Source: Gordonibacter urolithinfaciens (GTDB lineage Bacteria > Actinomycetota > Coriobacteriia > Coriobacteriales > Eggerthellaceae). Taken from it: a stretch of 64,000 nt of DNA. The translations under genes and the position numbers were made by a program. Below are positions 3,384 through 47,156 of this stretch, in pieces. The first letter of the stretch is position 1; each line of letters begins with the position of its first letter. The notes under the pieces are model-generated. The model saw only the letters and a program-made list of their open reading frames with translations, did no database searches and was not told the origin of the DNA. Location of the stretch: contig NZ_LT900217.1 in assembly GCF_900199375.1 (NCBI RefSeq), positions 682,001 to 746,000 on the forward strand, given 5' to 3'.

Positions 3384-3812
3384 TCATTCCCGCTCGCCCA
3401 CAAGCTCGATGTCGAACGCCAGCTCCTTGCCGGCCAGCGGATGGTTGAAGTCGACGCGCGCCATGCCCTCGCGCACCTCGAGCACTTTGGCCGGAAAGCG
3501 CAGCCCCTCTTCGGTGACGAAATAGAAGAGCCTGCCCACCTCGATGTCCTTCGCGTTGGGAATGGCGTACATAGGCGCCAGCTCCACTTTCTCCTCGATG
3601 CGCTCCCCGAAGGCATCGCATGCGGGCATGACGACGTGCCGGGACTCGCCCACCTCCATGGACGCCACAGCCTCGTCGAACCCATGGATGACCTCACCCG
3701 AGCCCACGACGAACTCCAGTGGTTCCTTGCCCTCGGTGCTGTCGAACACCGTCCCGTCCGCCAGCGTGCCGCGGTAGCGGACCCGAGCGGTCTTGCCATA
3801 GCTCGTCATCAT
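3384..3812 (-). CDS. FKBP-type peptidyl-prolyl isomerase, SlyD-like (operon A)
   Basis: A 142-residue FKBP-fold protein with VRYRGTLADGTVFDST at the N-terminus, GSGEVIHGFDEAVASM in the middle and the SlyD hallmark DFNHPLAGKELAFDIEL at the C-terminus. The middle of the domain holds an insert-in-flap region, as in SlyD. The His-rich metal-binding tail of enterobacterial SlyD is absent. The start is ATG at 3812 (a second ATG follows at 3809), preceded by AAGGAG. It is the last gene of operon A, 89 bases after the Fe-S subunit, which suggests it folds or matures the Mo/Fe-S pair; that role is inferred from position only. Confidence 0.8.
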   Translation of the reverse strand: MMTSYGKTARVRYRGTLADGTVFDSTEGKEPLEFVVGSGEVIHGFDEAVASMEVGESRHVVMPACDAFGERIEEKVELAPMYAIPNAKDIEVGRLFYFVTEEGLRFPAKVLEVREGMARVDFNHPLAGKELAFDIELVGERE

Positions 3813-3901
3813 GCGCTCCTTATCGCGAGGAGGGACCGGCCTTCGCACGTCTCGCTGCTTCCGGTCCCTCGGCTTTCCTTCCTTGCGCCCTTCGAAAGAC
3901 G

Positions 3902-4261
3902 CTAGCAGACCGTGCCCGCCTTCGGCACGAAGACGGCGAACTTGGTCGAACCATCGAAGTTGCGCACGAGCTCGTCGACGGGGCCATAGCGCATGGCAAG
4001 GCTCTGACAGTGCTTCACGCACAACGGCTTCTTGCCCTTGGCGGTGCGCTCGGCGCACAGGTTGCACTGGTCGGTGGGCACCGGGACGAAATCGTACTGG
4101 TACGCATCACCGTCGATCTGCCAAGGTCCGATCTTCTGTATCTTGATTCCCCAGCGGTCGACCGGCAAGCCGTGCTCCATCTGGCACGAAACCTCGCACG
4201 AATGGCAGCCCGTGCAGAACTCGTAGTTGATCAGCAGGCCGTATGCCTTGTCGTCAGCCAT
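3902..4261 (-). CDS. Two-cluster 4Fe-4S electron-transfer subunit (operon A)
   Basis: A 119-residue ferredoxin-like subunit. Cysteines at 16, 19, 22 and 26 (CTGCHSCEVSC) and at 66, 69, 81 and 85 (CNLC ... CVKHC) match motifs I and IV of the DmsB/NrfC family, so two [4Fe-4S] clusters are expected. The middle motifs II and III found in larger family members are missing. The start codon directly abuts the stop of the large Mo subunit (4262), so translation is probably coupled. It would pass electrons to the Mo subunit in the cytoplasm. No signal peptide is present. Confidence 0.88.
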   Translation of the reverse strand: MADDKAYGLLINYEFCTGCHSCEVSCQMEHGLPVDRWGIKIQKIGPWQIDGDAYQYDFVPVPTDQCNLCAERTAKGKKPLCVKHCQSLAMRYGPVDELVRNFDGSTKFAVFVPKAGTVC

Positions 4262-6670
4262 TTACACCAGCTCCTCGTTCATCGCGAAACGCTTCGCGAT
4301 CTCGTCCATGTCGGTATCGCCAATAGCCTCGTCCGGCGCGCATTTGCGCACGCGGCACATATGCGACTTGCAGTTGTTTCCAAACCCGCTCTCCCCGCAA
4401 CCCGCCTCCACGATGACGTTCGGGTTGGAGAGGTACGTGCCGTAGCAACCGCCGCCCTCGTCCTCGGGGTTCTTCTCGGGGAACCACCATGCGTGGTCGA
4501 GCGAGATGGTAGACGGGTCGAGCACGGGCGAGACGTTGGCCTTGAGCTGCACGCGCCCTAGATGGTTCTCGATCCAGCACCAGTCGCCCTGCCCGATGCC
4601 GTACTCCTCGGCAGTCTCGGGCGCTATCTCGAACTCAGGGTTCGGATGCAGTGCGCGCAGATGCGGGATCTGGCGGTGCTCCGAATGGAACGAGGCCCAT
4701 TGGCGCGCGCCCGTGGTCATGATGAGCGGATAACGGGAAAGGTAGTCGTCCTTGTCGAAACGCTCGGGCACCTGGTTGGGACTGTAGGGTGGCTCGGCGT
4801 AGTGCGGGACCGGACGCTGCCCCCATTGCCCGAAGAGCGTCGAGTACAGCTCAATGCGGCCGGTGGGCGTGTTGAACCCGGGCTTTCCATCGGGGCGCTG
4901 CTCGCCCGTGCGGAACTTCTCGTAATGGTACTCGGGATAGATCCAGTTCTCGGCACGCGCCTCCTCGAATGTCATGCCCGTTTCCTTCATGGTGAAGGTG
5001 AAGAACTCCTCGAGCGTCTCGCCCGGCCACATCTCGGCATTCCATTGGCGTCCGAGCTCCCAGCAAATCTCCATGTCGGACTTGCTCTCACCAAGCGCCT
5101 CGCAGGCCTTGTTCGTGGTCTGCACGTGGTAGTAGATCGAGCGTATGCCGTTGCGCTCGGGATACATGCATACGGGCAGGAACACGTCGCAGCACGCCTG
5201 GGCAGTCGGGGTCATGAACGGATCGACCATGACATTGAACTCTGCGTTCTTGTAAGCCTGCTCCATGCGCGTGTTCGGCTCCTGCGCCGTGCAGGAGAGC
5301 GGATTCGTGGATTGTATCCAGTTGGCGCGGATCTTGTAGGGACGGCTCGTGAGCATCTGGTCGACCGTCATGTCAGCTTGCGTGAGCACCACGCCGGAAT
5401 ACTTCAGCGCGGGGAAATCCTCGCCTCCGATACGCTGCCGCTGCTCTTCGGGTGTCAGGCACTCGGCCGGATCGGGAGGGTTCCACGTTTGGATATTGAA
5501 GGGCTGGTGCACCGTCACCATGCCGCCGGGGATGTCGATCTGCCCGGTGATGGACCACAGGTCGATGACGGCGGCCGACCCGGCAAGGCACTCCATGGTC
5601 ATGTCGAGCGCAAGGCCCCACTGCACGGCCGTGGGCTTCTCGGCCATCATGCGCGCGGCTTGGGCGATCTTATCCTCGGGCAGCCACGTGACCTCCGCCG
5701 CGCGCTCGAGCGTCCATCCGCGCGTCGCCTCGTAGTACTCCTCGAAGCCGTAGCACCACCGCTCCACGAACTCGTGGTCGTAGAGGTCCTCCTCCACGAT
5801 GAACTTCCCCATGGCGAGCGCGAGCGCGGCATCGGTGCCGCATCGGATCTGCAGCCAGAGGTCGGCGCGTGCGGCGAGCCACGTGAGCTTGGGATCGATG
5901 ACCACGAGCTTGCTGCCGCGCTTCATGCAGTCCACGATCCAATGGCCCAGGTTGCCGTCGGCGTTTGACACGAGCGGGTTGTTGCCCCAGATGAATATGT
6001 TCTTGGGCGGCACCCAGCCTTCGTGGTCGTAACGGTCGTAGTGGTTCTGCGAGCAGTCGGGAACCGTATAGGTCCCCATGAGCACGTTGGAAGCGCCCAC
6101 GCGCGGCACGTAGCAGCTGTTGCCCGACAGCATGTAGGCGTACTGAACGGAGCCGAACGCGTACTGCAGGCGCGTCATGTAGGGCGCGGTTCCGCGGCCG
6201 GTGCCCAAATGGAACACGACGGCCTTTGCGCCAGACTCGGCCTTGATGGCATCGAACTTCTCCTTGATGAGGGCGTAGGCCTCGTCCCAGGTGATGCGCT
6301 CCCACTTGTCGGCCTTTCCGCGGTCCCGCGGGTCGCGTCGCATGGGGTAGAGCACGCGATCCGGGTGGTACACGGCCTCCTTGAGCGCGATGCAGCGAGC
6401 GCAGAGGCGGCCTTGGTAATAGGGGCTCTCCTCGTCGCCTTCCACCTTGACGAACGCGCCGGTCTCCTTGTCGGTATAGACGATGACGCCGCAGCCATCA
6501 TGGCAACCGGGTGCCGCCCACGCCCCCGTGCGCGTGGCTACCAGGCCGTCCTCCTCCCACTGCCAAGGCAGGTCGCCCCCGGTGTACTTGACCGGAGGCT
6601 CGCGGAAGAAGTCAGGGCGCACCTCGTTGGTCCCACCCTGCTCGACTTCCATGTCGATGCGTTTTACCAT
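4262..6670 (-). CDS. Molybdopterin-dependent oxidoreductase large subunit A (bis-MGD, acetylene hydratase/catechol dehydroxylase-like)
   Basis: An 802-residue member of the DMSO-reductase superfamily. The N-terminal cluster region has C56 and C60 (PGCHDGCG) and C90/C93 (GRLCARC). The molybdopterin domain begins at KWERITWDEA (about 122-131). The predicted Mo-ligand cysteine is C186 in LSGNSCYVPR, the position of Cys141 in acetylene hydratase. The C-terminal cofactor-binding domain includes YPLIMTTGAR and SFHSEHRQIPHLR. No Tat signal is visible, so it should be cytoplasmic. The start at 6670 follows GAGGAGCGAGGA. It heads operon A, divergent from operon B. The substrate is unknown; reductive dehydroxylation or hydration of an aromatic or organic compound is the family precedent. 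Confidence 0.85.
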   Translation of the reverse strand: MVKRIDMEVEQGGTNEVRPDFFREPPVKYTGGDLPWQWEEDGLVATRTGAWAAPGCHDGCGVIVYTDKETGAFVKVEGDEESPYYQGRLCARCIALKEAVYHPDRVLYPMRRDPRDRGKADKWERITWDEAYALIKEKFDAIKAESGAKAVVFHLGTGRGTAPYMTRLQYAFGSVQYAYMLSGNSCYVPRVGASNVLMGTYTVPDCSQNHYDRYDHEGWVPPKNIFIWGNNPLVSNADGNLGHWIVDCMKRGSKLVVIDPKLTWLAARADLWLQIRCGTDAALALAMGKFIVEEDLYDHEFVERWCYGFEEYYEATRGWTLERAAEVTWLPEDKIAQAARMMAEKPTAVQWGLALDMTMECLAGSAAVIDLWSITGQIDIPGGMVTVHQPFNIQTWNPPDPAECLTPEEQRQRIGGEDFPALKYSGVVLTQADMTVDQMLTSRPYKIRANWIQSTNPLSCTAQEPNTRMEQAYKNAEFNVMVDPFMTPTAQACCDVFLPVCMYPERNGIRSIYYHVQTTNKACEALGESKSDMEICWELGRQWNAEMWPGETLEEFFTFTMKETGMTFEEARAENWIYPEYHYEKFRTGEQRPDGKPGFNTPTGRIELYSTLFGQWGQRPVPHYAEPPYSPNQVPERFDKDDYLSRYPLIMTTGARQWASFHSEHRQIPHLRALHPNPEFEIAPETAEEYGIGQGDWCWIENHLGRVQLKANVSPVLDPSTISLDHAWWFPEKNPEDEGGGCYGTYLSNPNVIVEAGCGESGFGNNCKSHMCRVRKCAPDEAIGDTDMDEIAKRFAMNEELV

Positions 6671-6756
6671 TCCTCGCTCCTCTCGATGAGCCCGTCCTGC
6701 CAAGGGCGCGCCCCCAACGCCCGAAGGCGCGAAGAGGGCTTGCCCTTCCGCTGCGG

Positions 6757-6780
6757 AGAATACGGGTAAAAAAGTAAGTT
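6757..6780 (-). promoter_or_regulatory. Operon A promoter with AACTTACTT box
   Basis: On the minus strand AACTTACTT (6780-6772), nine bases, then TATTCT (6762-6757) as -10. The same box, spacing and -10 form occur upstream of operon B, the MFS gene at 9718 and the transhydroxylase operon. There is no TTGACA-like -35, so control by a shared regulator is likely. Confidence 0.65.
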
Positions 6781-6847
6781 CTGAAGGGACGAGAGGCTGT
6801 TTCGGAGTGCTGTTTCACTGTCACGCCCCGAGTCGCAGGCTCTGGGA

Positions 6848-6906: not shown

Positions 6907-9195
6907 ATGGCATTCCATTTCAAGGACAATCCCGCGCCCAAGAAAACCGTCCTCGAGGACGGTACGGAGGTCATCCGCACCTGCGCCTGGTCGCCGCCGG
7001 GCTGCCATGCGGTGGGCTGCGGCATTCGCCTGTTCGTGAAGGACGGCGAGCTGGTAAAGGTGGAGGGAGATCCCGACCACCAGCTGACACAGGGGCGGCT
7101 CTGTCCCCGCTGCCTGGCGCTCAAGGAGGCCGTGTACCACCCCGACCGTATCCGCTATCCCATGAAGCGAGCCCGCGAGGACCGAGGCCTTGACAAATGG
7201 GAGCGCATCTCGTGGGACGAGGCCACCGACCTTATCGTCTCCAAGACGGAGGACATCCGCGCCCGTTACGGCTCGGAGGCTATCTGCGTGTACATGGGTA
7301 CGGGTCGCGAGGCCGTGCGCTACGGCTTCACGCTCTCGTCGAAGGTGCTGCGCACGCCCAACAACTGCTACGCCCAGTCCGGCTGGTCCTGCATGGGCCC
7401 GCGCCAAACGGCCATGACCATGATGCTGGGAAGCGCCTACATCGAGCTCGACTACGGAGGCGGGTACGTCGATGTGTGGAACGACCCCGCATTCGTGGTT
7501 CCCGACTACGTTTTCTGCCTGGGCAAGGAGCCGCTCAAGTCGAACCCGGACGGCCTGTGGGGCCATGCCCTCATCGAGCTCATGAAGCGCGGCAGCAAGC
7601 TTATCATGGCAGACCCGCGCGTGAACTGGCTGGCCACACGCGCCGACCAGGTGCTGCAGGTGCTGCCCGGCACCGATGCGGCGCTGTGCCTGGCCATTCT
7701 CAACGTGCTAGTCGACGAGGACCTCGTGGACCACGACTTCATCGAGAAGTGGTGCTACGGCTATGACGAGCTGGTCGAGCGCGTGCAGGGGTATACACCC
7801 GAGTTCGCTGCCGCAACCTGCGGCATCTCGGCAGACGACATTCGCACGTGCGCCCGAAAGCTCGGATACGACGGCGTGCATCATTGGAGCCTACTCATGG
7901 GCGTGGCAGTCGACCAGAACCCGAACGGCTGCCAGGTCACGCAGTGCCTCATCGCCATGGCCGCCATCACCGGCAATCTCGATGTGCCGGGCGGAACCGT
8001 GGTGGGCGTGCAGATGCAGTTCGAGATGACCGGAGCCACGGACTTCATGAGCGAAGAGCTCAAGAACAAGTGCATCGGCTGGGACGTCTACCCCATCGTC
8101 AAGGTCCTGCTGAACACCACCCATCCCGACATCACGCTCGAGGCGCTGGAGACAGGCCGACCCTACGAGTTGAAGATGGCCTGGCTCGACTCGACGAACC
8201 TGCTCTCCCCCACCTGCTCGGCCCAGCCCAAGCGGTGGCACGACGCGCTTATGAGAATGGAATTCACCGTGGCCAAGGAAATGTTCATGACCCCGACGGT
8301 CATGGCCTTGGCCGATGTGGTGCTGCCCCTGGCCACCTGGGCCGAGCACGACGGCATCGTCATGACGAACCAAGGCTGCCAGATGGGCATAGCCGGAGCC
8401 ATCAACAAGGGCCTGCAGGTGGGCGAGTGCAAATCCGACCTGGAAATGCTCATCCACTTCGGCAACGCTTTCTACGAGCGCGCCTATCACGAGGAGTACC
8501 CGTTCAGGACAGTGGAGGAGTACCTGGCCGACGACGTGGGCAAGATGGACACCACCTGGGAGGAGCTGTCCGAGAAGGTGGTGGCAACCAACGACATCGG
8601 CGGGTACCGGAAGCACGAACGCGGGCTCATCCGCGCCGACGGCCTGCCCGGCTTCCAGACCGCTACCGGCCGCGTTGAACTGTGGTCGACCGGCTATCAG
8701 TCGCTCGGCGACGACCCGCTGCCCTACTACTTCCCGCCCAAGCTGGGAGCCGAGGAACGTCCGGACCTGGCACGTGAGTACCCGCTCATGTGCACGACCG
8801 GCGCCCGTTACTTCGCCTCGTTCCACTCGGAGCATCGCCAGATACCCAGCTTGCGCCAGCTCACCCCCGAACCTTACCTGGAGATACATCCGGAGACGGC
8901 AGCGGCCCTCGGCATCAAGTCGGGTGACGAGGTGACGATCGAGAACCCCTGGGGCAGCGCGCACGAGAAAGCCAAGGTAACGCCCACCGTACGCAAGGAC
9001 GTGGTGGCGGCCGCCCACGGCTGGTGGTACCCCGAGGAAGACGGCGAGGAGCCGCACCTGTTCGGGGTGTGGAAGTCTAACGTGAACAGCCTTGTCCCCC
9101 ACCGCGTGCTCGGGAAAATGGGGTTCGGCGCCCCCTACAAGCAGGTGCCGGTGAAGGTGTACAAGACCCCGCACGAAGAATGCGTGCTCGGATAA
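6907..9195 (+). CDS. Molybdopterin-dependent oxidoreductase large subunit B
   Basis: A 762-residue bis-MGD enzyme. C26, C33 and C38 (CAWSPPGCHAVGCG) with C66/C69 (GRLCPRC) form the Fe-S region. KWERISWDEA (about 97-106) opens the molybdopterin domain. The predicted Mo-ligand cysteine is C162 in QSGWSCMGPR. TTGARYFASFHSEHRQIPSLR marks the C-terminal domain. No export signal is present. The ATG at 6907 is preceded by AGAGGAGC; an out-of-frame ATG lies at 6902. It forms a two-gene operon with its Fe-S partner, 10 bases downstream, ended by a strong hairpin. Same length as large subunit C, its likely closest relative in the window. Substrate unknown. Confidence 0.85.
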   Translation: MAFHFKDNPAPKKTVLEDGTEVIRTCAWSPPGCHAVGCGIRLFVKDGELVKVEGDPDHQLTQGRLCPRCLALKEAVYHPDRIRYPMKRAREDRGLDKWERISWDEATDLIVSKTEDIRARYGSEAICVYMGTGREAVRYGFTLSSKVLRTPNNCYAQSGWSCMGPRQTAMTMMLGSAYIELDYGGGYVDVWNDPAFVVPDYVFCLGKEPLKSNPDGLWGHALIELMKRGSKLIMADPRVNWLATRADQVLQVLPGTDAALCLAILNVLVDEDLVDHDFIEKWCYGYDELVERVQGYTPEFAAATCGISADDIRTCARKLGYDGVHHWSLLMGVAVDQNPNGCQVTQCLIAMAAITGNLDVPGGTVVGVQMQFEMTGATDFMSEELKNKCIGWDVYPIVKVLLNTTHPDITLEALETGRPYELKMAWLDSTNLLSPTCSAQPKRWHDALMRMEFTVAKEMFMTPTVMALADVVLPLATWAEHDGIVMTNQGCQMGIAGAINKGLQVGECKSDLEMLIHFGNAFYERAYHEEYPFRTVEEYLADDVGKMDTTWEELSEKVVATNDIGGYRKHERGLIRADGLPGFQTATGRVELWSTGYQSLGDDPLPYYFPPKLGAEERPDLAREYPLMCTTGARYFASFHSEHRQIPSLRQLTPEPYLEIHPETAAALGIKSGDEVTIENPWGSAHEKAKVTPTVRKDVVAAAHGWWYPEEDGEEPHLFGVWKSNVNSLVPHRVLGKMGFGAPYKQVPVKVYKTPHEECVLG

Positions 9196-9205: not shown

Positions 9206-9541
9206 ATGGGCAAGATCGGACTGATGATCGATTACGAATACTGCACCGGCTGCCAGAGCTGCGAGCTGGCCTGCAAGAACGAGCACGGCTTTCCCTTGGA
9301 CAAGTGGGGCATCAAGATGATGGAATTCGGCCCGTTCGAGATGGAGGAAGGCAAGCTCGAGTGGAACTACCTCCCCTTCCCCACCAGCTACTGCGACCTC
9401 TGCGCCGAGCGCGTGGAGTCGGGCGGCATCCCGACCTGTGCGTTGCACTGCCTCGCGAACGTCATAGAATGGGGGCCTGTGGACGAGCTCTCGAAGAAGC
9501 TCGAGGATAAGGGCTCGAAGGCGGTGATATTCCTGCCTTGA
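9206..9541 (+). CDS. Two-cluster 4Fe-4S electron-transfer subunit (operon B)
   Basis: A 111-residue ferredoxin-like protein. Motif I CTGCQSCELAC has cysteines at 13, 16, 19 and 23, and motif IV is CDLC ... CALHC, giving two [4Fe-4S] clusters. AAGGAGGA lies just before the ATG. It follows large subunit B by 10 bases and is its obvious electron-transfer partner. It is the shortest of the partners here, with no C-terminal extension. Confidence 0.88.
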   Translation: MGKIGLMIDYEYCTGCQSCELACKNEHGFPLDKWGIKMMEFGPFEMEEGKLEWNYLPFPTSYCDLCAERVESGGIPTCALHCLANVIEWGPVDELSKKLEDKGSKAVIFLP

Positions 9542-9717: not shown

Positions 9718-10947
9718 TTACTCGTCGGTTGCAGGAGCCTCCGCCTTCATGGCGCTCGCCTTCTTGGCTACGTAGACGAGGCCCACGAGCACCAGGATGC
9801 CGACGACTATATCGAAGATCCACACGGAGCTCATGATGGCGTCGGCACCCGCCACCAGGGAAACCACCTGGTCGATGGGAGAGGCCAGGAAGCCGCCGCC
9901 GTTCTGGAACACGTAGCTGAAGCCCATGACTGTGCCAACGATGGCAGGGGCGACAAAGGTGGACAACAGCATGGGGACGCCAACCGTCATGGTGTTGGTG
10001 CCGAAGCCCGCCAAGACGATGGCGACGTAGAACAGCGGAACGTTGCCCGTCACATGCGCCGCGTACCACAGCACATAGCCCACGATGCCGACCACCCAGA
10101 ACGCCGGGATGGCATACGCCTTGAGGAACTTGTAGGCAGGCCCGAACAGCAGGGCCGAGGCAATGGCACCGACCGAGAACAACGAGAAGATGGTGCCGAT
10201 CACGGCAGGGTTGTCCACGACTGCACCGATGGTGGCGCCGCCAAGGTTGAACAGCGACTGGCTCATGATGATGCCGCCTAGGAACAGCACGAGCAGCACC
10301 CAGCCGGAAACCGGGAGCTTGATCTTCACCTTCTCGCCCGACGCATCGGTTGCGGGCACGGCCGGAACGTTCTTCGGCGTGAGCAGGAAGATGCACAGCA
10401 CGAACGGCACGAGCGAGAACAGATAGATCCCCCAGGCCAGGTTCCAAGAGATGGCACCCAGGATGCCGGCCACGTTCGTGGTGACGATCATACCGACGTT
10501 GAACACCACGGATGCCACGCTCATCATGGTCGCGCGGACGGACTCCTTCTGGAACATGAGCGAGATCACGCCGAGCACGACCGGCATGAAGCAGCCGAGG
10601 CCTAAACCGAGTATCGCGCGCGTCACCAGGATGCCCTCCCACGGCAGCGCGGCGCCCAGGAAGGTGGGCACACCGCCCACGAACACGAGGGCCGTGGCGA
10701 GCAGAGCGCACGCGCGGTAACTGAGCTTGCGCCCCGCCACCAGGCCGATGACGAACGCCGCCGGGATCTCGAGCAGGTTGGTGATGGACACCATATAGGA
10801 GATGGCGTTCGCATCGACCCCGTACGTGCTCATGAGGCCCGTAGAGGCCACGTTCACGGCGCTGTGCGTGGGCGCGATGAAGTACATGCACATGAGCGCG
10901 GCGAACACTCCAATCTGGCCGCTTGAGATCTTCGTTTTCTCGGACAT
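9718..10947 (-). CDS. MFS transporter
   Basis: A 409-residue carrier with about twelve hydrophobic segments, starting MSEKTKISSGQIGVFAALM. The ATG at 10947 follows AAAGGGGA; the upstream ATG at 10977 has no ribosome site. Its own promoter has the AACTTACTT box shared with operons A and B and the transhydroxylase operon, so it is probably the uptake (or efflux) system for the compound those enzymes handle. This is inference from shared control and location between them. The C-terminus is short and acidic (APATDE). Ended by an intrinsic terminator. Confidence 0.85.
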   Translation of the reverse strand: MSEKTKISSGQIGVFAALMCMYFIAPTHSAVNVASTGLMSTYGVDANAISYMVSITNLLEIPAAFVIGLVAGRKLSYRACALLATALVFVGGVPTFLGAALPWEGILVTRAILGLGLGCFMPVVLGVISLMFQKESVRATMMSVASVVFNVGMIVTTNVAGILGAISWNLAWGIYLFSLVPFVLCIFLLTPKNVPAVPATDASGEKVKIKLPVSGWVLLVLFLGGIIMSQSLFNLGGATIGAVVDNPAVIGTIFSLFSVGAIASALLFGPAYKFLKAYAIPAFWVVGIVGYVLWYAAHVTGNVPLFYVAIVLAGFGTNTMTVGVPMLLSTFVAPAIVGTVMGFSYVFQNGGGFLASPIDQVVSLVAGADAIMSSVWIFDIVVGILVLVGLVYVAKKASAMKAEAPATDE

Positions 10948-17347: not shown

Positions 17348-17382
17348 GGGCCTACACGGGCGTCCGGGGAAACGGGGTGGGC

Positions 17383-37834: not shown

Positions 37835-37888
37835 TGTTCTCTCCTTTCCTTGTAGCCGCATCGCAATCGAAGCTTTGAGGCGCGCCCG

Positions 37889-39201: not shown

Positions 39202-40467
39202 TCACGCCTCCCAGTGCGCCTCCCTGACCTTCTTGGCAGGGACGAACGACAACAGGATGATGGCAATGGCAACGACTGCGATTACCGCTCCGACCAGGAA
39301 CGAGCCGCTATAGGTTTTCGTCATGTCGAAGATGATGCCGATGACCGGGGCGCCCATGGACCCGCACAGCCCCACGCCCATCATGCAGTAGGACAAGATC
39401 TTATCGTAGGCCTTCATGCCGAAGTGCTCGCGTGCCAGCATCGGCACCGAGATGGTGACGATGGCGTTGTTCATGCCGAAGAAGAATGCCGTGACCATGA
39501 GGGCGAGCTCGGTAGAGGCCATGGAGAAGCTCACATAGCAGACGATCAGGATGGCGTAAAGAATGACCGTGAGCCAGCGCACGCCGATCTTGTCGACCAG
39601 GATGCCGCCGACGAGCGAGGCGATGATATAGCCGACCTGCAACGCGATCATGAGCGTCGATGAGAAGATGAGCGCCTCGGGGCCGAGCACCTCCACGGCG
39701 TTGGCCTGCACGAAGGAGTTGAAGCTGCCCGGGAAGGCCGACAGCATGCAACCTAGGAACAGCAGGACGAAGGCGAGCGTCGGCAGCGCGAACTTCAAGG
39801 GCACGCCCGGCAGGCTCTTGGACTCGCCCATCTCGTCTTCTTCGGCACCGAACGCATGGAGCCCAATCTTCGCCGGATCCTCGCAGAACACCGTGAGCGA
39901 GAAGAAGAGGATGCACAGCAGCAGGATGGCGTTCAGGTAATAGGCGCTCTGCCACCCCATGACCGTGGACAGCGACGTGAACACCAACGGGAAGAGGGCG
40001 CCTCCGACGCCGGACATCAGCTGCGCGATGCCCAGGTAGCGCCCGAGCACCTTCTTGCCGAACCAGGCCCCCATGAGCAGCGGCGTGGCGTACAGGAAGT
40101 ACATGCCGCCCGTCAAGCCCATAACCGCGCCTATGGCCATGAACTGCCATGTCCAGCTTGCGTCGGCGAACGTGAACGCGACGACGCACAGGGCGGTGAC
40201 GACGACGTCGAGGGAGATGACTATCCTCGCCCCGAACTTGGGGATGAGTATCCCCGCGAAGAACGTGCCGAACAGCGCGGCTATGCCGTAGCAGGTGATC
40301 CACATGGCGAACACGCCCATATCCACGCCTACGGCAGCGGGGACGATGGCAAAGAACGCTGATGACGAGTTGAGCACGGTCCCCAAGCCGCACGCCTGCA
40401 TGACGCAGCAGCCCACGAACACGAGCATGGCCCTTTTCTTGCTGCGCGCATCTATATCGGTAGACAT
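39202..40467 (-). CDS. MFS transporter, oxalate/formate antiporter-like
   Basis: A 421-residue carrier with about twelve hydrophobic segments, MSTDIDARSKKRAMLVFVGC at the start and GAWFGKKVLGRYLGIAQLMS in the middle loop, related to its neighbour at 37889. ATG 40467 follows AAGGAGGATA. Third gene of operon H-G. Two related carriers in one operon with two Mo enzymes suggests each enzyme has its own substrate carrier, or one imports and one exports; this is inference. Confidence 0.85.
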   Translation of the reverse strand: MSTDIDARSKKRAMLVFVGCCVMQACGLGTVLNSSSAFFAIVPAAVGVDMGVFAMWITCYGIAALFGTFFAGILIPKFGARIVISLDVVVTALCVVAFTFADASWTWQFMAIGAVMGLTGGMYFLYATPLLMGAWFGKKVLGRYLGIAQLMSGVGGALFPLVFTSLSTVMGWQSAYYLNAILLLCILFFSLTVFCEDPAKIGLHAFGAEEDEMGESKSLPGVPLKFALPTLAFVLLFLGCMLSAFPGSFNSFVQANAVEVLGPEALIFSSTLMIALQVGYIIASLVGGILVDKIGVRWLTVILYAILIVCYVSFSMASTELALMVTAFFFGMNNAIVTISVPMLAREHFGMKAYDKILSYCMMGVGLCGSMGAPVIGIIFDMTKTYSGSFLVGAVIAVVAIAIILLSFVPAKKVREAHWEA

Positions 40468-40563: not shown

Positions 40564-40905
40564 CTACTTCGTGTAGAGCGCCCAGCGGGTCTCGCCGCCC
40601 ATCTTCTTCACCAGATCCTCGGCCTCGCCGTAGTACATGCACCATGCCTGGCAGTGCTGCACGCACATGGGCATCTTCCCGGCTTCCGTGCGAGAAGCGC
40701 ACATATCGCAAGCCTTGGTGAGAACGGGGAGCCAGGTCCACTCCCAACGCTCGGGTCCTTCCTTGCCCTCGTAGGCGTAGGGCCCGGTCTCGGTGAGCTT
40801 GATGCCGAACTCGCCCTTGGGCAGCCCGAGCTCCTTCTTGCAAGCCACCTCGCACGAATGGCAGCCGGTGCAGTACTCGTAGTTGATCAGAATCGCCTTG
40901 GTCAT
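40564..40905 (-). CDS. Two-cluster 4Fe-4S electron-transfer subunit H
   Basis: A 113-residue ferredoxin-like protein with CTGCHSCEVAC and CDMC ... CVQHC, predicting two [4Fe-4S] clusters. It starts 13 bases after large subunit H, with AAGGAGGAGG before the ATG (40905). It is the only small subunit in an operon with two large subunits (H and G), so it may serve both. It ends WALYTK, without an extension. Confidence 0.87.
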   Translation of the reverse strand: MTKAILINYEYCTGCHSCEVACKKELGLPKGEFGIKLTETGPYAYEGKEGPERWEWTWLPVLTKACDMCASRTEAGKMPMCVQHCQAWCMYYGEAEDLVKKMGGETRWALYTK

Positions 40906-40918: not shown

Positions 40919-43411
40919 TTATGCTTGCATGGGCTGGTAGTCGTCGCGCCAGCCACCGAGTTGCGTGATCTGCTCTCCGGGCATGACGTCGCCGTCCTTT
41001 ACCTTGTAGATACGGCAGCGCGTGCACTTGATGGGCGACCCGATGCCGCCGGGACCGGATTGGAAGTTGCGCGTGAGGTTGTTCACGTTGTAGTCGAAGC
41101 ACCCGTGCAGGTGCGGCACGGCCCCCTCCTCCTCGGGCTTCCACCAACCGTGCTCGGCCGATAGGCAGTCGTCGGGAATGCCGGCGAACACCTCGGCCAT
41201 CTGCTTGCAGCGCCCCTCGTCGTTCTCCATCCAGATCCAATCGCCGTCCTGCAGGCCGTATTCGGCGGCCGTTCCGGGCGACACCTTCACGCGCGGCTCG
41301 GGGTGGAACTCGCGCATCGTGGGCGCCTGGCGGTGCTCCGTATGGAAGAACTCGTAGGAGCGAGCGCCGTTTATCAGATAGAACGGGAACTTCTCCATGA
41401 TCTCCGGGGTGGTCTCCCAGGTCTCGGGAGCAGGCGTGTACACCGGGTACGGCGGTATCCCCCACGATTGGAAGATGGTCGGCACCAGCTCGATGCGGCC
41501 GGAGGGCGTGTTGAACCCGACCTGGCCGTCGGGGCGCAGCATTCCCTTCTCGTGCTTGAAATAGGTTGCGTTCCATTCGTCGTAGGCATGGCCGCCCGCT
41601 TCGACCAGCTGGTCGAAGGTGTAAGGACACTTCGTGGTGACGGACGGGCCCCCGTCCTCGGTCACGGAGGTGTGGCCCCAGTTGTCGTCCGTGGCGGCCG
41701 AGAAGTTCGCCTTCTGCACTTTGCCGTCGGGCCCCACGACCGCGAGGTCGGTCAGCAGGTAGTCGTTGATGAGGTCCTCGGCAGACTCCCAGCGCACGAA
41801 CAGGTCGGGGTTCAGACGGCGGCCCAGCCAAAGCGCTATCTCCTCGTCGGATTTCGCCTCGTAGAAACTCGTGACCTTCTTCATGGCGCGCAACGGCGTC
41901 CACCAGGTACGAGCCGAATCGCGCTCCACCGACATGGATACCGGCAGGACAAGGTCGGCGATGGCGACCATCGTCGGCGTGACGAACGGGTCGGCATACA
42001 CGATGAAGGGTATCTCCTTCATGTACTTGTAGGCACGCGGCACCTGCCCCTCGTGGCCAGCGAACGCATTGCAGCTCTGCGCCCACAGCATCTTGATGGG
42101 GTACGGCTCGCCCGTTGCGGGGACCTCGCCCGCCTCGAGCACCGAGGCCATCGCATCGCAGTTCGACATGCCCACGAAATCGAGCCCTTGGTCGCCAACC
42201 ATCCACTTGCGGAACTTGCGTTCGAGGGCCTGCGGGTCGGCGTAGAGGTCCACCGAAGAGTAGCCGGCGTTGATGTCGAACGAGTTGTGCACGAGCACGT
42301 GCGTGCCGGGCTTCTCGATGTTGCCGCAGATGGCCATGAGATCGCACACGGCCTCCACCCAATGCATGGACGACCTCGTGCCGGCATCGAATACGAGGCC
42401 CCATTGTATGGCCCCGCGGTCGGCGCTCGCGTAGAGGCGCGCCGCTGCGACGATCTCGTCCTCGGGAACGCCGGTAATCGATGCCGCCCAGGCGGGCGAG
42501 AACTGCTGCACATGCTCCTTGAGCTCGTCGTAGTAGGCGCACCAGTTGTCGACGAACTCATGATCGATCAGATCCTCGCCCATGATCACGTTGAGCCACG
42601 CGAGCGCGATACAGCAGTCCGTGCCGGGTCGCGGCCTCAGCCAGTGCTCGGCACGCGCCCCCCACCAGGTGAGAACGGGATCGATGGAGACTACCTTGGT
42701 GCCCATCTGCACGCACACGTTCAGCCAATGGCCCAGGTAGCCGTCACCGTTCGATTTCAAAGGCTCGTTGCCCCAGACCACCAGCACATCAGGGCGCACC
42801 CACTCGCTATGGGCGTAGCGCTCGGGCAACGTCTCCGACGCGTCGACGATAGGATAGTCTCCCAAGGGGCCGGCGGCACCGCACACGCGGGGCATGTAGC
42901 ACCACCATCCCGAAAAGTAGATACCGCCCACGTTCGCAGTCCGGAAGCACGCCCCGGCTATGAACGGGACCTGCCAGTTGATGTTGCGACCCGTGCCATG
43001 GCCCACCAGAATGGATTCGCGGCCCAGGCCCTTGCCGTCGATCTCCTCTTTGATGTAGGTATCGATCATGTCGAGCGCCTCGTCCCACGAGATGCGCTCC
43101 CACTTGTTCTCTCCGCGCTCGCCCGCGCGTCTCATGGGGTACTTCAGACGTTGGGGATGGTTCACCATCTCGTCCAGGTCCAGGCAGCGCATGCACAGCT
43201 TCCCGTTCGCATACGGGTCGAGCGGATCACCCTCCACCTTCTCCAGCTTGCCGTCCTTGGTATACAGCAGGACACCGCAGGAGTCGTGGCAGCCGGGAGC
43301 GCTGTAGTTGTAGGTGCGCGTGACGGTGCAGCCGTCCTCCTCCCATTCCACCTCCCCTTCGTGGTACGCCTTGCGATCGATGCCGTCCAAGAACTCCTCG
43401 TAGTCAATCAT
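40919..43411 (-). CDS. Molybdopterin-dependent oxidoreductase large subunit H
   Basis: An 830-residue bis-MGD enzyme. Cysteines 41 and 45 (PGCHDSCG) and 73/76 (GKLCMRC) form the Fe-S region. KWERISWDEA is at about 103-112. GTGRNINWQVPF follows. The predicted Mo-ligand cysteine is C171 in FSGWWCYMPR. It has no signal peptide. The start 43411 follows AAAGGAGGAG. It leads operon H-G and shares with operon I an 83-base upstream block. It is most similar to subunit G; together they form a separate subgroup from A, B, C, E, F and I. Family precedent is reductive dehydroxylation of catechols or related reactions. Confidence 0.85.
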   Translation of the reverse strand: MIDYEEFLDGIDRKAYHEGEVEWEEDGCTVTRTYNYSAPGCHDSCGVLLYTKDGKLEKVEGDPLDPYANGKLCMRCLDLDEMVNHPQRLKYPMRRAGERGENKWERISWDEALDMIDTYIKEEIDGKGLGRESILVGHGTGRNINWQVPFIAGACFRTANVGGIYFSGWWCYMPRVCGAAGPLGDYPIVDASETLPERYAHSEWVRPDVLVVWGNEPLKSNGDGYLGHWLNVCVQMGTKVVSIDPVLTWWGARAEHWLRPRPGTDCCIALAWLNVIMGEDLIDHEFVDNWCAYYDELKEHVQQFSPAWAASITGVPEDEIVAAARLYASADRGAIQWGLVFDAGTRSSMHWVEAVCDLMAICGNIEKPGTHVLVHNSFDINAGYSSVDLYADPQALERKFRKWMVGDQGLDFVGMSNCDAMASVLEAGEVPATGEPYPIKMLWAQSCNAFAGHEGQVPRAYKYMKEIPFIVYADPFVTPTMVAIADLVLPVSMSVERDSARTWWTPLRAMKKVTSFYEAKSDEEIALWLGRRLNPDLFVRWESAEDLINDYLLTDLAVVGPDGKVQKANFSAATDDNWGHTSVTEDGGPSVTTKCPYTFDQLVEAGGHAYDEWNATYFKHEKGMLRPDGQVGFNTPSGRIELVPTIFQSWGIPPYPVYTPAPETWETTPEIMEKFPFYLINGARSYEFFHTEHRQAPTMREFHPEPRVKVSPGTAAEYGLQDGDWIWMENDEGRCKQMAEVFAGIPDDCLSAEHGWWKPEEEGAVPHLHGCFDYNVNNLTRNFQSGPGGIGSPIKCTRCRIYKVKDGDVMPGEQITQLGGWRDDYQPMQA

Positions 43412-43577: not shown

Positions 43578-43808
43578 TTAAGGCAGGTGCGGCTCCTGCC
43601 CGCACTCAACGTCGCCGCGGCTTTCGCCCGCGGCTCGTCGGGTCCCGCTCGGTGCGAACGCAAGCGCACCGCATGCCGGGCAGCGCCCCGACACGGGGTC
43701 GACCGTGCCGCCGCACGCAAGGCACGGTATCGTGGCGGGGGAAACGTAGAAGGGGCTGCCTTCGCGGTACTTGCCGCACCTGCCGCATCGCGTGCACGGA
43801 TAGCACAA
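43578..43808 (-). CDS. Cys-rich double zinc-ribbon protein (MCYPC type, operon I; TTG start)
   Basis: A 76-residue protein opening MCYPCTRCGRCGKYREG, then CLACGG and CPACGA, with a hydrophilic tail. The only sensible start is TTG at 43808, as the first residues match the ATG-started twin at 21900-22100. It is the last gene of operon I, 10 bases after the isomerase. Predicted to bind two zinc ions. Function unknown. Confidence 0.7.
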   Translation of the reverse strand: MCYPCTRCGRCGKYREGSPFYVSPATIPCLACGGTVDPVSGRCPACGALAFAPSGTRRAAGESRGDVECGQEPHLP

Positions 43809-43818
43809 CGCCCTCGCC

Positions 43819-44253
43819 CTACCTCAGGTCAACCAGCTCGACCCAGTACGCGAGCGTCTTGCCGGCGAAGGGATGGTTGAAATCGAGCTTCACCATGTCG
43901 GCGGTTTCCTCCGTCACCCAAGCGGGCATGCGTCTTCCGTCGTCGGGGTTGGTCCAGAAGACCACGTCCCCCGCTTTGAGGTCGTAGCCGTGCTCCACCA
44001 TGCCTTTGAGGTGCCACGACGCGAGCTTGTCCTGGTACGCGCCGTAGCCGAGCTCGGGCGGCACCTCGATGGACCGCGCCTCGCCCACCTCCATGCCCAC
44101 CACAGCCTCCTCCACTCCCCGCGGAAGCTGCATGGTCCCGATCACGACGGCCAAAGGATCGCCTGTGGAACGGTCGTCGAGCGGCTCCTCGCCGAGCACA
44201 CCTCCCTTGTACCTGAGGTAAGCGGTTCTCCCCGCCTTGTTCGCGCGATCCAT
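43819..44253 (-). CDS. FKBP-type peptidyl-prolyl isomerase, SlyD-like (operon I)
   Basis: A 144-residue FKBP-fold protein with AYLRYKGGVLGEEPLDD, PPELGYGAYQDKLASWHLKG and LDFNHPFAGKTLAYWVELVD. It has the same length as the operon F-E isomerase and the same place between Fe-S subunit and zinc ribbon. ATG 44253 follows GGGGGAGG. No His-rich tail. Probable folding helper for the Mo/Fe-S pair, inferred from repeated linkage. Confidence 0.8.
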   Translation of the reverse strand: MDRANKAGRTAYLRYKGGVLGEEPLDDRSTGDPLAVVIGTMQLPRGVEEAVVGMEVGEARSIEVPPELGYGAYQDKLASWHLKGMVEHGYDLKAGDVVFWTNPDDGRRMPAWVTEETADMVKLDFNHPFAGKTLAYWVELVDLR

Positions 44254-44267
44254 TGCCTCCCCCGCTC

Positions 44268-44786
44268 TCATTCGCAAGCCGAGGTCGGCTGCTCCCCCTC
44301 GAGCACCGCGGTCTCGTCGATCTCGCCGACCTTGGTGTCGTGGCGATGTACGGCATAGGAGGCCTTCCCGGTCCCCTGGACCTCGATATGGGCCGCCCGG
44401 TGCGCGCTCTTGCGGGAGGGCACGAAAGCGCCTTTCGCCTCGAGGGGGTTGTACTGGGGCACCATGAGGAACTGCTTCGGCTTGCGATCGAGCTTCTTGG
44501 AGAGCTCCTCGACCGTGCCGTACGAGATGACGTTCGCCAGGCAATGGTGCACGCACGAAGGCTCGCGTCCCCGCCCCGTGCGCTCGGCGCAAAGGTCGCA
44601 CAGGTCGGTGAGCACCGGGAAGTGGTTCCAGTTCCACCGCTTCCCGTCAATCTTCCAGGGTCCGTCGGAAAGCACCTTGATACCCGTCTTCCCCACCGGG
44701 TAGCCGTGCTCCTCCTTGCACGTCACCTGGCAGGATCCGCAGTTCGTGCAGTACTCGTAATCGATCAGAAGTCCATATGCGGCCAT
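44268..44786 (-). CDS. 4Fe-4S electron-transfer subunit I with C-terminal His-containing extension
   Basis: A 172-residue protein. The ferredoxin part has CTNCGSCQVTC and CDLC ... CVHHC for two [4Fe-4S] clusters. An extension of about 55 residues contains HRAAHIEV and HRHDTKVGEIDE, shared only with subunit E. It starts 3 bases after large subunit I. The two extended small subunits are exactly those followed by an isomerase and a zinc ribbon, so the extension may be their docking site or a metal site; this is inference. Confidence 0.86.
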   Translation of the reverse strand: MAAYGLLIDYEYCTNCGSCQVTCKEEHGYPVGKTGIKVLSDGPWKIDGKRWNWNHFPVLTDLCDLCAERTGRGREPSCVHHCLANVISYGTVEELSKKLDRKPKQFLMVPQYNPLEAKGAFVPSRKSAHRAAHIEVQGTGKASYAVHRHDTKVGEIDETAVLEGEQPTSACE

Positions 44787-44789
44787 AAG

Positions 44790-47156
44790 TCACACCAGCT
44801 TTCCGAATTTTTCCCAGATGAGGTTCATGTCGGTGTCGTAGTTCTCGACAAGGGGATCGATGCTGCAGACGAGGCACTTGTTCGGCGCCCCGAAGCCGAG
44901 CTTGCCGTAGTGGTCGTTGGGAAGCAGGTTGTTGATATTCGAGCGGAAGTTGCCGTAGAGGTTCGGCTCGCTGCCGTCCTCCTCGGGGAACCACCACGCG
45001 TGCTGCGCGTGGACGGTCTTCTCGTCGACGGTCTCCGTGACCCGCGCCTTCTCCACGCATTCGCCGAAGGGGCTTCGCAAGCGCACCCACTGCCCATCGG
45101 CTATGCCCAGGTCCAGGGCGACCTGCGGGTTAATCTCCACGATGGGGTCGGGGTTCAGCTCGCGCAGGTAGGCTATCTGGCGGTGCTCTGAATGGAAGAA
45201 CGCGGTCGTGCGCGCGCCCGTGGTGAGGATGAACGGGTACTCCTTCATGAGCTCCGGGTCGGCGGGGCCGAACTCCGGCTCCAGATAGTACGGCAGCGGA
45301 TCGTCCCCGAACTGGTTGAACGCCGTCGACCACAGCTCCACGCGCCCGGTGGGAGTGGCGAAGCCGGGCTGGCCGTCTTGGCGCATCTGGCCGCGCTCGT
45401 ACTTGTAGTACTCGACGGGGATCTGGCAGACCACGTTCTGCGAAACCTTGTCGAAGTACGCGCCGCCCTCCTTCTTGCCCAGGCGCAGCGCCTCCATGAA
45501 CTCCTTCGCACTCGCGAAGTCTTCCCACACCTCCGGGCGCAGACGCCGTCCCAGCTCATAGCACAGCTCGAAGTCGGTCATGGTCTCGCCCACCTCGATG
45601 GCCTTGTGCATGAAACCGGCCGTGACCGTGCAGGGCGCGTAATGCGTGAACACGGTTCCCTCGCGCTCCGCCACGGTGGACAACGGCAGGAAGATATCGC
45701 AGGACGCCTCGATGGATGGGTTCATGAACGTGTCGAAGCCGATGCAGAACTCCAGAGACTTCACGATTGCGTCATGCCAGCGCTGCGGCTCCATGGACGT
45801 GCAGCTCATGAGGTTGTTCCCGGCATAGAATCCCATCTTGATGGGATAGGGGTCGCCCGTCTCCAATGCATGCAGCATGAGGTCGGCATGGGCGTTGAGG
45901 ATAATCATGCAGTAGGCGGGATACTGCTCCAGGCCGATCATCTTCTTCTGCAGCTCGTCGCCCACCCCCTTCTCGAAACCGAAGCCCGATTCGTTGTGCC
46001 CCGCTCCCGCACCCGGCAGGATCTGCCCGCCGGGAACGTCCAGATTGCCCGTGATGGCCATGAGGTCCACCGTCACCTGACCGTTCTGCATGCCGTCGGT
46101 CTTCTGGTCGGCAGCCAGGCCCCACTGGATGGCGGCAGGCTTGGCCTGGGCGTACATGCGCGCCGCGGCGCAGATGTCCTCGACGGGCACGCCGCAGATC
46201 TCGGCAGCCTTCTCCGGCGGCATCTCCTGCACGCGCTCGGCCAGCTGGTCGAAGCCGTAGCACCAGTACTCCACGAAGTCATGGTCGTAGAGGTCCTCGT
46301 TGATGATGACGTTCAGCCATGCCATCCCTAAGGCCGTGTCCGTTCCGGCGCGCAGCTGCAGGTGGATGTCGGCGCGCGTGGCAAGCCAGTTCACCCGCGG
46401 GTCGATGACGATGAGGCGCGTGCCGCGGCGCATGGCATCGATGACGGCATGGCCGAAGAAGCCGTCTGGGTTCGACTCGAGCGGAGCCTTGCCCCATACC
46501 ACCAGGCATTCGGTGAGCTCGTAGCGCTCGTCCTCCCACCGGCCCGGCAATGCGCCCGCGTAGTCCCATTCGGGGTACGTCGTACCCGCGATGTAGGCGA
46601 TGGCCGCCAAACGCGGGGTGTAGCAGGCGTAACCCGACTGCGTGTAGCAGAAGTTCGGCGTACCGAAGCACATGGTGCCGTACGGCGCGAACGTGCCGCC
46701 CTCGCGTCCGGTGCCGGCGAACACCACGATGGACTCGCGCCCATAGGCGGCGGTGATGCGGTCGTACTCATCCTTGATGATGTCGAACGCCTCGTCCCAG
46801 GTAATCCGCTCCCAAGCATCGGCGTTGCCGCGCTCCTTCGGATCGCGCTTCATGGGATGCAGAAGGCGTGCCGGGTTGTAGATGTAGTCTTTGAGCGCAA
46901 GGCACCGAGGGCACAGGCGACCTTGGGTCACCGGATTGTTCTCGTCGCCCTCGACCCGCACGAGCCTGCCCCCGTCGTCCACGTACAGTTTGAGGCCGCA
47001 TCCCACCGGATGACATCCGGGTGGGGACCACGGACTCGTACGGGTGACGGTCAGGCCGTCCTCCTCGTATCGCCACGGCTTGCCGATGTCGTTGACGTCT
47101 GAAAGCGTATCGAGCTTGACCGCCTCGGCTCTTTGGTAGAACTCGTCTTCGCTCAT
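44790..47156 (-). CDS. Molybdopterin-dependent oxidoreductase large subunit I
   Basis: A 788-residue bis-MGD enzyme, paralogue of E. Cysteines 48 and 53 (PGCHPVGCG) and 82/85 (GRLCPRC) are kept; the extra upstream cysteine of E is serine here (RTSPWSPPGC). AWERITWDEA is at about 114-123. The predicted Mo-ligand cysteine is C178 in QSGYACYTPR. TTGARTTAFFHSEHRQIAYLR lies in the C-terminal domain. ATG 47156 follows AAGGACGAGG; the frame is open further upstream but runs through the conserved promoter block. First gene of operon I. Substrate unknown. Confidence 0.85.
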   Translation of the reverse strand: MSEDEFYQRAEAVKLDTLSDVNDIGKPWRYEEDGLTVTRTSPWSPPGCHPVGCGLKLYVDDGGRLVRVEGDENNPVTQGRLCPRCLALKDYIYNPARLLHPMKRDPKERGNADAWERITWDEAFDIIKDEYDRITAAYGRESIVVFAGTGREGGTFAPYGTMCFGTPNFCYTQSGYACYTPRLAAIAYIAGTTYPEWDYAGALPGRWEDERYELTECLVVWGKAPLESNPDGFFGHAVIDAMRRGTRLIVIDPRVNWLATRADIHLQLRAGTDTALGMAWLNVIINEDLYDHDFVEYWCYGFDQLAERVQEMPPEKAAEICGVPVEDICAAARMYAQAKPAAIQWGLAADQKTDGMQNGQVTVDLMAITGNLDVPGGQILPGAGAGHNESGFGFEKGVGDELQKKMIGLEQYPAYCMIILNAHADLMLHALETGDPYPIKMGFYAGNNLMSCTSMEPQRWHDAIVKSLEFCIGFDTFMNPSIEASCDIFLPLSTVAEREGTVFTHYAPCTVTAGFMHKAIEVGETMTDFELCYELGRRLRPEVWEDFASAKEFMEALRLGKKEGGAYFDKVSQNVVCQIPVEYYKYERGQMRQDGQPGFATPTGRVELWSTAFNQFGDDPLPYYLEPEFGPADPELMKEYPFILTTGARTTAFFHSEHRQIAYLRELNPDPIVEINPQVALDLGIADGQWVRLRSPFGECVEKARVTETVDEKTVHAQHAWWFPEEDGSEPNLYGNFRSNINNLLPNDHYGKLGFGAPNKCLVCSIDPLVENYDTDMNLIWEKFGKLV

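Follow-up and report, generated by a model that had tools for sequence, protein, structure and literature searches.

We analysed a 64,000-nucleotide window of the Gordonibacter urolithinfaciens genome (C1:682001-746000 of a single contig of 3,294,868 bases) and find that the molybdenum enzyme genes clustered there probably form a modular island of Gordonibacter-type catechol dehydroxylases (A, B, C and E to I) with one transhydroxylase homologue (D), in which units A, E and I come with putative FKBP maturation factors. This explanation is built on the genes, their clade, motifs and order, and on two FKBP lineages, and it takes the chemistry, the specificity and LuxR-dependent induction from published work on relatives. 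The enzyme class is already published. Two features, the FKBPs of the operons and an enzyme pair beside the island that lacks iron-sulfur (Fe-S) cysteines, are absent from the passages of the literature searched, which comprised open-licence papers without supplements. A reading of these two features in which one is a sub-class matured by its own SlyD-like FKBP and Cys-rich mini-protein, recruited twice as a soluble counterpart of TorD, is offered tentatively, with slightly more doubt than confidence.

All nine large subunits that the original prediction, made from the letters of the DNA, had described as full-length bis-molybdopterin guanine dinucleotide (bis-MGD) enzymes match PF00384 and PF01568 over the cut-off; eight also match PF04879, while the ninth, D, matches PF21423 instead. 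The nine Fe-S small subunits that it counted are likewise present, with eight or nine cysteines each and fifteen in D, and each has a Fer4-type Pfam match, over the curated cut-off only in C, D, F and H. The window contains eight pairs, an orphan small subunit (18078-18434) and the unpaired large subunit G. A small [4Fe-4S] subunit is adjacent to each of A, B, C, E, F, H and I, and none is adjacent to G; the gene order H, small subunit, MFS, MFS, G runs along one strand, and G may use the small subunit of H. The orphan lies between the TetR gene and an MFS gene with no adjoining large subunit, and is 100% identical in Gordonibacter pamelaeae 7-10-1-b, which we take to be strain DSM 19378. Simple tests for a twin-arginine motif and for hydropathy over the first 60 residues, used in place of a signal-peptide program, found neither the motif nor a hydrophobic stretch in any of the nine large subunits, in agreement with the predicted lack of export signals. 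No membrane-anchor gene was noticed among the gene calls of the window, and the hallmarks of Eggerthella-type enzymes (twin-arginine translocation (Tat) signal, membrane anchor) were thus not seen.

The enzymes were placed in a tree of 73 large-subunit rows, of which 61 come from the window genome (the nine included), five from 7-10-1-b and five from E. coli references, with fragments of acetylene hydratase and transhydroxylase added and rows shorter than 650 residues dropped beforehand; it is a quick IQ-TREE run with Shimodaira-Hasegawa-like approximate likelihood-ratio (SH-aLRT) support only, without bootstrap. A, B, C, E, F, G, H and I fall into one 33-row clade of soluble, signal-less enzymes (SH-aLRT 100), which takes in 28 of the window genome's large subunits in the tree. 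The closest within the window are E and I (74% identity), G and H (58%) and F with E or I (57-58%), and the eight are spread across at least four subclades, so that a single tandem expansion does not account for the island.

This clade is labelled through inferred homologues of published dehydroxylases, which we located by adjacency, identity and neighbours rather than by the sequences of the characterised enzymes. In the text available to us, (+)-Eldh1/2 are the colocalised GPA_25810/GPA_25800 of G. pamelaeae DSM 19378, with 74% identity (PMC11887054). The window genome has two adjacent large subunits of the soluble clade, own_1918718 and own_1921467, which are 74.3% identical (74.6% for their 7-10-1-b counterpart), and the one other adjacent same-strand pair compared from 7-10-1-b shows 83.4%; since the identity of the first pair fits the published value, Eldh1/2 most likely lie outside the window. 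Also outside it, own_3005375 and own_3015622 of the same clade adjoin an amidohydrolase (PF04909) and a LuxR gene, an arrangement that fits the eam (urolithin, Eadh) cluster as the published passages describe it. By this mapping none of A to I is Eldh1/2 or Eadh, and A, B, C and E to I share their clade with the mapped lignan and urolithin dehydroxylases, which bears out the enzyme class originally proposed. The original proposal that each enzyme has a substrate of its own may not hold for E and I, which share 74% identity like the Eldh1/2 pair and, by analogy with it, may attack two positions of a common substrate.

The same data bear on two other ways of reading the enzymes. That they are respiratory reductases of S- or N-oxides, thiosulfate or nitrate, mis-read as polyphenol enzymes, is very improbable. 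NCBIfam models of respiratory reductase families match all nine, but the matches listed are all far below the curated cut-offs, and none of the models listed is reached at its cut-off by any of the nine large subunits. Among the E. coli references, TorA comes next to the transhydroxylase group that contains D (SH-aLRT 95); none of the other eight, however, groups with DmsA, TorA, NarG, NapA or FdhF, the outcome that the phylogeny proposed at the outset was meant to distinguish, and the enzymes have no leader and no noticed anchor gene. A redox-neutral role as hydratases or transhydroxylases, rather than reductive dehydroxylases, is improbable but has more to commend it. In the PDB sequence search, which among the eight soluble large subunits covered A, E, F and G, acetylene hydratase is the best solved relative of all four (250, 261, 281 and 251 bits); the next match reaches 162 bits for A, 178 for E and 169 for G, and for F there is none among the matches listed. 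The Cys aligned with that of acetylene hydratase which we take to be its metal ligand is present in all 33 soluble rows, within a conserved [ST/A]GxxCxxPR motif that carries the putative Mo-ligand Cys, and D itself is transhydroxylase-like. Acetylene hydratase nevertheless falls outside the soluble clade, which does include enzymes mapped to proven dehydroxylases, and two cluster motifs, for which a redox-neutral enzyme would have no use, are retained in the typical small subunits. The four Fe-S Cys columns of the large subunits are filled in 29, 31, 32 and 32 of the 33 rows, the gaps stemming from start-codon choices. A review, in the part available, states that Gordonibacter catalytic subunits lack an Fe-S motif found in those of Eggerthella (PMC11574389); given the PF04879 matches in eight of eight and the filled columns, we predict that the typical large subunits keep a cluster with unusual Cys spacing.

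For catechol dehydroxylases of the Gordonibacter type, the published passages describe enzymes with no Tat signal, a small 4Fe-4S protein and MFS neighbours (PMC7028382), and 12-transmembrane (12-TM) LuxR regulators that act for single enzymes (PMC9734109). By analogy with the substrate specificity and LuxR induction of these relatives, the general reading of the cluster as a polyphenol-metabolising island is likely.

That reading overlooked the FKBP genes: the cluster had been described as almost without unrelated genes, which passed over four FKBP genes, two Cys-rich mini-genes and a P-loop ATPase-like gene. Of eight FKBP matches in the genome, five fall within 67 kb (685.6 to 752.2 kb), and four FKBP_C (PF00254) proteins lie in the window. 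The FKBP gene comes directly after that of the small subunit in units A, E and I, and in E and I a gene for a Cys-rich mini-protein starts ten bases after it. Judged by PF00254 and alignment for all four, the PDB search for that of A (best sequence match FKBP12-IF(SlpA), 5i7q) and the predicted fold for that of I (predicted local distance difference test, pLDDT, 91.1; best Foldseek PDB matches SlpA/SlyD structures), the window FKBPs class as SlyD/SlpA-type proteins with an insert-in-flap domain. The genome also encodes 17 TorD-family matches, none of them in the island.

The association of FKBP with these enzymes recurs across the family. An FKBP search of 119 family genomes gave a match in 109, and the best 30 of those loci, one per genome, were compared. 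A Mo large subunit lies directly upstream in 12 of the top 15 loci and in none of the next 15 (Fisher p 1.1e-5, relatedness ignored), and a homologue of the mini-protein lies downstream in the same proportions, 12/15 and 0/15; of the three top loci lacking the large subunit, two are truncated at a contig end. Forty wider stretches were then chosen by FKBP score, about a dozen lower-scoring or housekeeping FKBPs serving as controls. Here the order large subunit, small subunit, FKBP is present in all 15 E/I-type loci whose large subunit can be seen, from seven genera (in an eighth, at a contig edge, the small subunit alone is visible), and in four of four A-type loci from two genera. FKBPs that do not follow a small subunit are those of the stand-alone type (as at 33704) and those of stretches L119, L123, L131, L132, L134 and L136-L143; the stand-alone setting, beside MFS-LuxR-MFS, recurs in L106. 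A tree of 65 FKBP sequences divides the 24 operon-linked members between two clades, an E/I type (22 rows, 19 operon-linked, SH-aLRT 100) and an A type (5/5 operon-linked, SH-aLRT 100); the A type falls on the housekeeping side of the tree (94). As the operon FKBPs form two clades behind two enzyme clades, FKBP was probably taken up twice, and we infer that these proteins are dedicated maturation chaperones.

The word FKBP occurs 0 times in the open-licence main texts searched on Gordonibacter-type dehydroxylases; no open-licence paper was found that combines Gordonibacter molybdopterin, or catechol dehydroxylase, with peptidyl-prolyl, and titles on SlyD and molybdoenzymes, on FKBP and molybdenum cofactor operons, or on Gordonibacter 21-dehydroxylation do not bring FKBP together with these enzymes. 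Accessory genes are worked out in the published passages for the Eggerthella type, where Dadh needs a TorD-like chaperone, and the same passages describe none for the Gordonibacter type.

An alternative makes passengers of the FKBP and mini-protein genes: they would encode general chaperones that stay in place through an ancestral gene order and play no part in maturation. Most FKBP-linked loci are homologous E/I-type operons and so are not independent, and the FKBP is less conserved than its enzyme (66.7% versus 93.5% between Gordonibacter and Raoultibacter). Two separate FKBP lineages nonetheless occupy the same place behind two separate enzyme clades, and the large-small-FKBP order is kept in seven to eight genera within otherwise rearranged islands; we therefore consider the passenger explanation unlikely, though considerably less so than the redox-neutral one. 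Several observations weigh against the maturation role and the wider explanation. Units B, C, D, F and H have no FKBP, nor, judging by the eight FKBP places, do most of the genome's 28 soluble enzymes, and the passages on Eldh and Eddh describe two-subunit enzymes that were produced in another genus; FKBP is thus not generally needed. Large subunits of F type in L119, L125, L127 and L128 have no FKBP behind them; an operon link is also missing for the FKBPs of L119, L123, L131 and L134 and, in the DNA fetched, for three rows of the E/I clade, one of them at a contig edge. The 40 stretches were selected by FKBP and so do not give the frequency of E/I-type enzymes without one. In the alignment the FD pair is kept by the A-type FKBPs and altered in the E/I type, which makes prolyl-isomerase activity of the latter doubtful. 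Finally, D might reduce another substrate.

We propose that the typical unit, presumably transcribed as an operon, works as a cytoplasmic dimer. In the bis-MGD large subunit the molybdenum would be held by the Cys of the conserved motif, and the small subunit, with two predicted [4Fe-4S] clusters, would pass electrons from a presumed donor to the large subunit, where an aromatic hydroxyl would be reductively removed from an imported catechol-like compound. The MFS carriers would transport substrate or product, and the membrane LuxR regulators (plus PucR and TetR) would activate individual units in response to their compound. The FKBP (A, E, I) and the mini-protein (E, I) may hold the apo-enzyme for folding or cofactor insertion, standing in place of the TorD chaperones that the genome keeps elsewhere. 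Catechol dehydroxylases shape what the body gains from dietary polyphenols and some catechol drugs; most of them have no assigned substrate, and they are hard to produce in active form. Folding-helper genes within the enzyme operons may explain how these proteins mature, and a conserved FKBP beside the enzyme genes is a direct and cheap candidate for the missing maturation factor.

Elsewhere in the genome, a divergent second trigger-factor-like protein (C1:2763185-2764483, L054:9186-10484; PF05697 27.5 bits and PF05698 24.0 bits, just over the cut-offs) is encoded between the soluble Mo enzyme units at 2758526 and 2764758, and may be one more chaperone that these enzymes have recruited.

The second feature lies about 9 kb to the right of the window, where a small subunit (C1:755229-755588) and a large subunit of 770 residues (755609-757921; L026:9612-11921) form a pair. 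The large subunit belongs to the soluble clade and has GSHPVGYG and GRVNAMN where other rows keep Cys; its only Pfam match is a sub-threshold fragment of PF04879. The small subunit contains two Cys altogether and has no Pfam match. Among 119 genomes from 48 genera, 35 genomes and 16 genera have a relative of the small subunit with at least 77% identity. Of 21 loci, 19 yielded the large subunit (contig ends cut off the other two), and all 19 show the same Cys losses and keep the ligand motif, the 18 others being 78-98% identical to the query; three small subunits of these loci carry four or five Cys, and an FKBP lies within the fetched stretch in nine of the 21.

This pair is very probably the hydrocaffeic acid dehydroxylase Gp Hcdh, an assignment made by length, distribution and regulator rather than by sequence comparison. 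The published length of Gp Hcdh is 770 residues; the main text, in the part seen, reports a catalytic and an "accessory" subunit with equimolar Mo, does not contain the word iron, and places regulators beside the homologues of strain 28C and Ellagibacter. Five of the 33 soluble queries matched at 75% or more in the fetched stretches of both Ellagibacter and 28C, and only the Fe-S-free one has 770 residues. Its LuxR neighbour recurs nearby in 28C (81%), Raoultibacter (68%) and Ellagibacter (44%). Against this identity, the paper names four genera and the pair occurs in 16 of those searched, and the Ellagibacter regulator is distant in sequence (44%) and about 7 kb away. Two other large subunits of 770 residues, own_2758526 and own_16120, were dropped as candidates because their best 28C matches are 50% and 65%. 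If the pair is Gp Hcdh, how a cytosolic Mo reductase works without a cluster relay becomes testable. An FKBP gene (PF00254) at C1:751409-752235 (L026:5409-6235), a few kb from the pair, again adjoins a gene for a Cys-rich small protein.

Unit D stands apart. The transhydroxylase homologue named in the original prediction does group with transhydroxylase 4v4c (SH-aLRT 100), which is its best PDB match (390 bits, against 219 for DMSO reductase), and the PF21423 match that takes the place of PF04879 is to a pyrogallol hydroxytransferase domain (AhtL-like domain 1), as expected for a transhydroxylase, whose large subunit lacks an Fe-S domain. Its NPDSWEGW motif and HH pair align with 4v4c in an alignment that covered part of the chain; we take these to be the Mo-ligand Ser with the neighbouring catalytic Asp and the His of transhydroxylase. 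From its sequence, D is predicted to move a hydroxyl between phenols, as pyrogallol-phloroglucinol transhydroxylase does. Three D-like large subunits elsewhere in the genome (C1:19058, 2457525 and 2658003) group with D (support 100).

The extent of the island had been underreported, as a tenth pair (large subunit 679211-681610, small subunit 678850-679197) lies a short way beyond the left end of the window. PF00384 matches 69 times in the genome, which manual merging reduces to about 64 genes, and ten large subunits in about 57 kb give a Poisson p of 2.8e-7 before correction for about 58 such stretches, a value to be read with the stretch having been chosen after the cluster was seen and with duplicated genes not being independent. 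In G. pamelaeae 7-10-1-b, where the trigger factor region shows 98.7-99.2% DNA identity, the same genes stand in the same order with orthologues mostly 99-100% identical, and the island has thirteen large subunits, the three extra ones adjoining the trigger factor. In the fetched stretches of strain 28C, E, F, G, H and I are matched at 91-96% and the tenth at 97%, and A, B and C have no match above 50%. From these two comparisons the island is a conserved but modular locus of the genus. For unit I, protein identity of 93.5% between Raoultibacter and Gordonibacter, against 64% for trigger factor, had suggested horizontal transfer; this was set aside, since the DNA differs only as 77.9 versus 73.2%, which makes strong purifying selection on the unit as likely as transfer.

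The extra 7-10-1-b segment (its C1:3437508-3456251, stretch L062) occupies about 19 kb between the trigger factor and the island and is absent from the window genome, with the break near 51.2 kb of the window. Encoded there are three Mo large subunits together with a corrinoid set (RACo, B12-binding and URO-D domains) such as O-demethylases employ, enzymes that would convert methoxy-aromatics into catechols.

The transporters and regulators originally listed are all present, if not all within 3384-47156, the span to which they had been assigned: six MFS carriers and the TetR gene (PF00440) do lie inside, a seventh carrier (271-1509) lies outside, and the PucR gene (1767-3371) and two of the four LuxR genes (47398-48819 and 48836-50401) lie just outside. 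The P-loop ATPase-like protein (34299-34985) adjoins G and has homologues in stretches L063, L106 and L120. It has no PDB sequence match, and its model, from three sequences, has a mean pLDDT of 63.7. In another genus, the L120 homologue (L120:5827-6495, 35% identical) comes after the mini-protein gene of an operon of E/I type, and the protein may thus be a further accessory factor.

Table 1. Genes of the island and its flanks, in window coordinates.
Feature	Position	Strand	Evidence
MFS carrier, left edge	271..1509	+	PF07690
PucR-type regulator	1767..3371	+	PF13556, PF17853
FKBP of operon A, SlyD/SlpA type	3384..3812	-	PF00254; best PDB match 5i7q; A-type clade
Fe-S small subunit A	3902..4261	-	9 Cys; Fer4 matches below cut-off
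Large subunit A	4262..6670	-	PF00384/PF01568/PF04879; best PDB match acetylene hydratase
Large subunit B	6907..9195	+	PF00384/PF01568/PF04879
Fe-S small subunit B	9206..9541	+	Cys count; Pfam below cut-off
MFS carrier	9718..10947	-	PF07690
Fe-S small subunit C	11050..11388	-	Cys count; Fer4-type Pfam over cut-off
Large subunit C	11400..13688	-	PF00384/PF01568/PF04879
Small subunit D, transhydroxylase-beta-like	13733..14539	-	15 Cys and C-terminal beta domain; PF13247, PF13620
Large subunit D, pyrogallol transhydroxylase homologue	14550..17219	-	PF21423; 4v4c 390 bits; tree
TetR regulator	17377..18063	+	PF00440
Orphan Fe-S small subunit	18078..18434	-	Cys count; Pfam below cut-off
MFS carrier	18643..19854	-	Pfam
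Membrane LuxR regulator	19990..21627	-	PF00196; many hydrophobic segments
Cys-rich mini-protein, operon E	21900..22100	-	Homologues downstream of FKBP elsewhere
FKBP of operon E	22111..22545	-	PF00254; FKBP tree
Fe-S small subunit E	22675..23178	-	Cys count; Pfam below cut-off
Large subunit E	23180..25546	-	PF00384/PF01568/PF04879; 74% identical to I
Fe-S small subunit F	25647..25994	-	Fer4-type Pfam over cut-off
Large subunit F	25995..28325	-	PF00384/PF01568/PF04879; PDB search
MFS carrier	28788..29993	-	Pfam
Membrane LuxR regulator	30215..31735	-	Pfam; hydrophobic segments
MFS carrier	31994..33235	-	Pfam
Predicted protein, 58 residues, upstream of stand-alone FKBP	33463-33639		Identical in 7-10-1-b
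FKBP, stand-alone type, adjoining MFS-LuxR-MFS	33704..34150	+	PF00254
P-loop ATPase-like protein	34299..34985	-	Weak AAA_14 match below cut-off
Large subunit G, without own small subunit	35273..37861	-	PF00384/PF01568/PF04879; PDB search
MFS carrier	37889..39133	-	Pfam
MFS carrier	39202..40467	-	Pfam
Fe-S small subunit H	40564..40905	-	Fer4-type Pfam over cut-off
Large subunit H	40919..43411	-	PF00384/PF01568/PF04879
Cys-rich mini-protein, operon I, TTG start	43578..43808	-	Weak Zn-ribbon match below cut-off
FKBP of operon I	43819..44253	-	PF00254; model pLDDT 91.1, SlyD/SlpA fold
Fe-S small subunit I	44268..44786	-	Cys count; Pfam below cut-off
Large subunit I	44790..47156	-	PF00384/PF01568/PF04879; 93.5% (amino acids) in Raoultibacter timonensis
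Membrane LuxR regulator	47398..48819	-	Pfam; hydrophobic segments
Membrane LuxR regulator	48836..50401	-	Pfam; hydrophobic segments

Consideration of known systems places the island among the Gordonibacter-type dehydroxylases (Dodh, Cldh/(-)-Eddh, (+)-Eldh1/2, Gp Hcdh, Gs Vadh and Eadh1/2; PMC7028382, PMC11887054, PMC11585353, PMC12771579), with which it shares soluble two-subunit Mo enzymes, the lack of a signal peptide, a 4Fe-4S partner and MFS and LuxR neighbours; unlike them, it has ten pairs in one island, three units with FKBP, and G without a small subunit of its own. The hypervariable Eggerthella cluster, as described in passages of PMC11887054, resembles it in combining several dehydroxylases with accessory genes and in varying between strains, whereas the enzymes there have three subunits and a membrane anchor, and those of the island are soluble with FKBP instead. 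Unit D shares with pyrogallol-phloroglucinol transhydroxylase (4v4c) the PF21423 domain, the NPDSWEGW motif, the HH pair and a beta subunit with Fer4_11 and carboxypeptidase-regulatory-like domains; the two are of similar length (889 versus 875 residues) and distant, with end branches of 0.35 and 0.92. SlyD is described, in the part of the source seen, as supplying nickel for nickel-enzyme biogenesis and binding Tat signal peptides (PMC11198818). The window FKBPs share the FKBP and insert-in-flap domains of the SlyD/SlpA chaperones; in contrast to SlyD, they show no C-terminal metal-binding tail in the alignment, and their genes are tied to molybdoenzymes.

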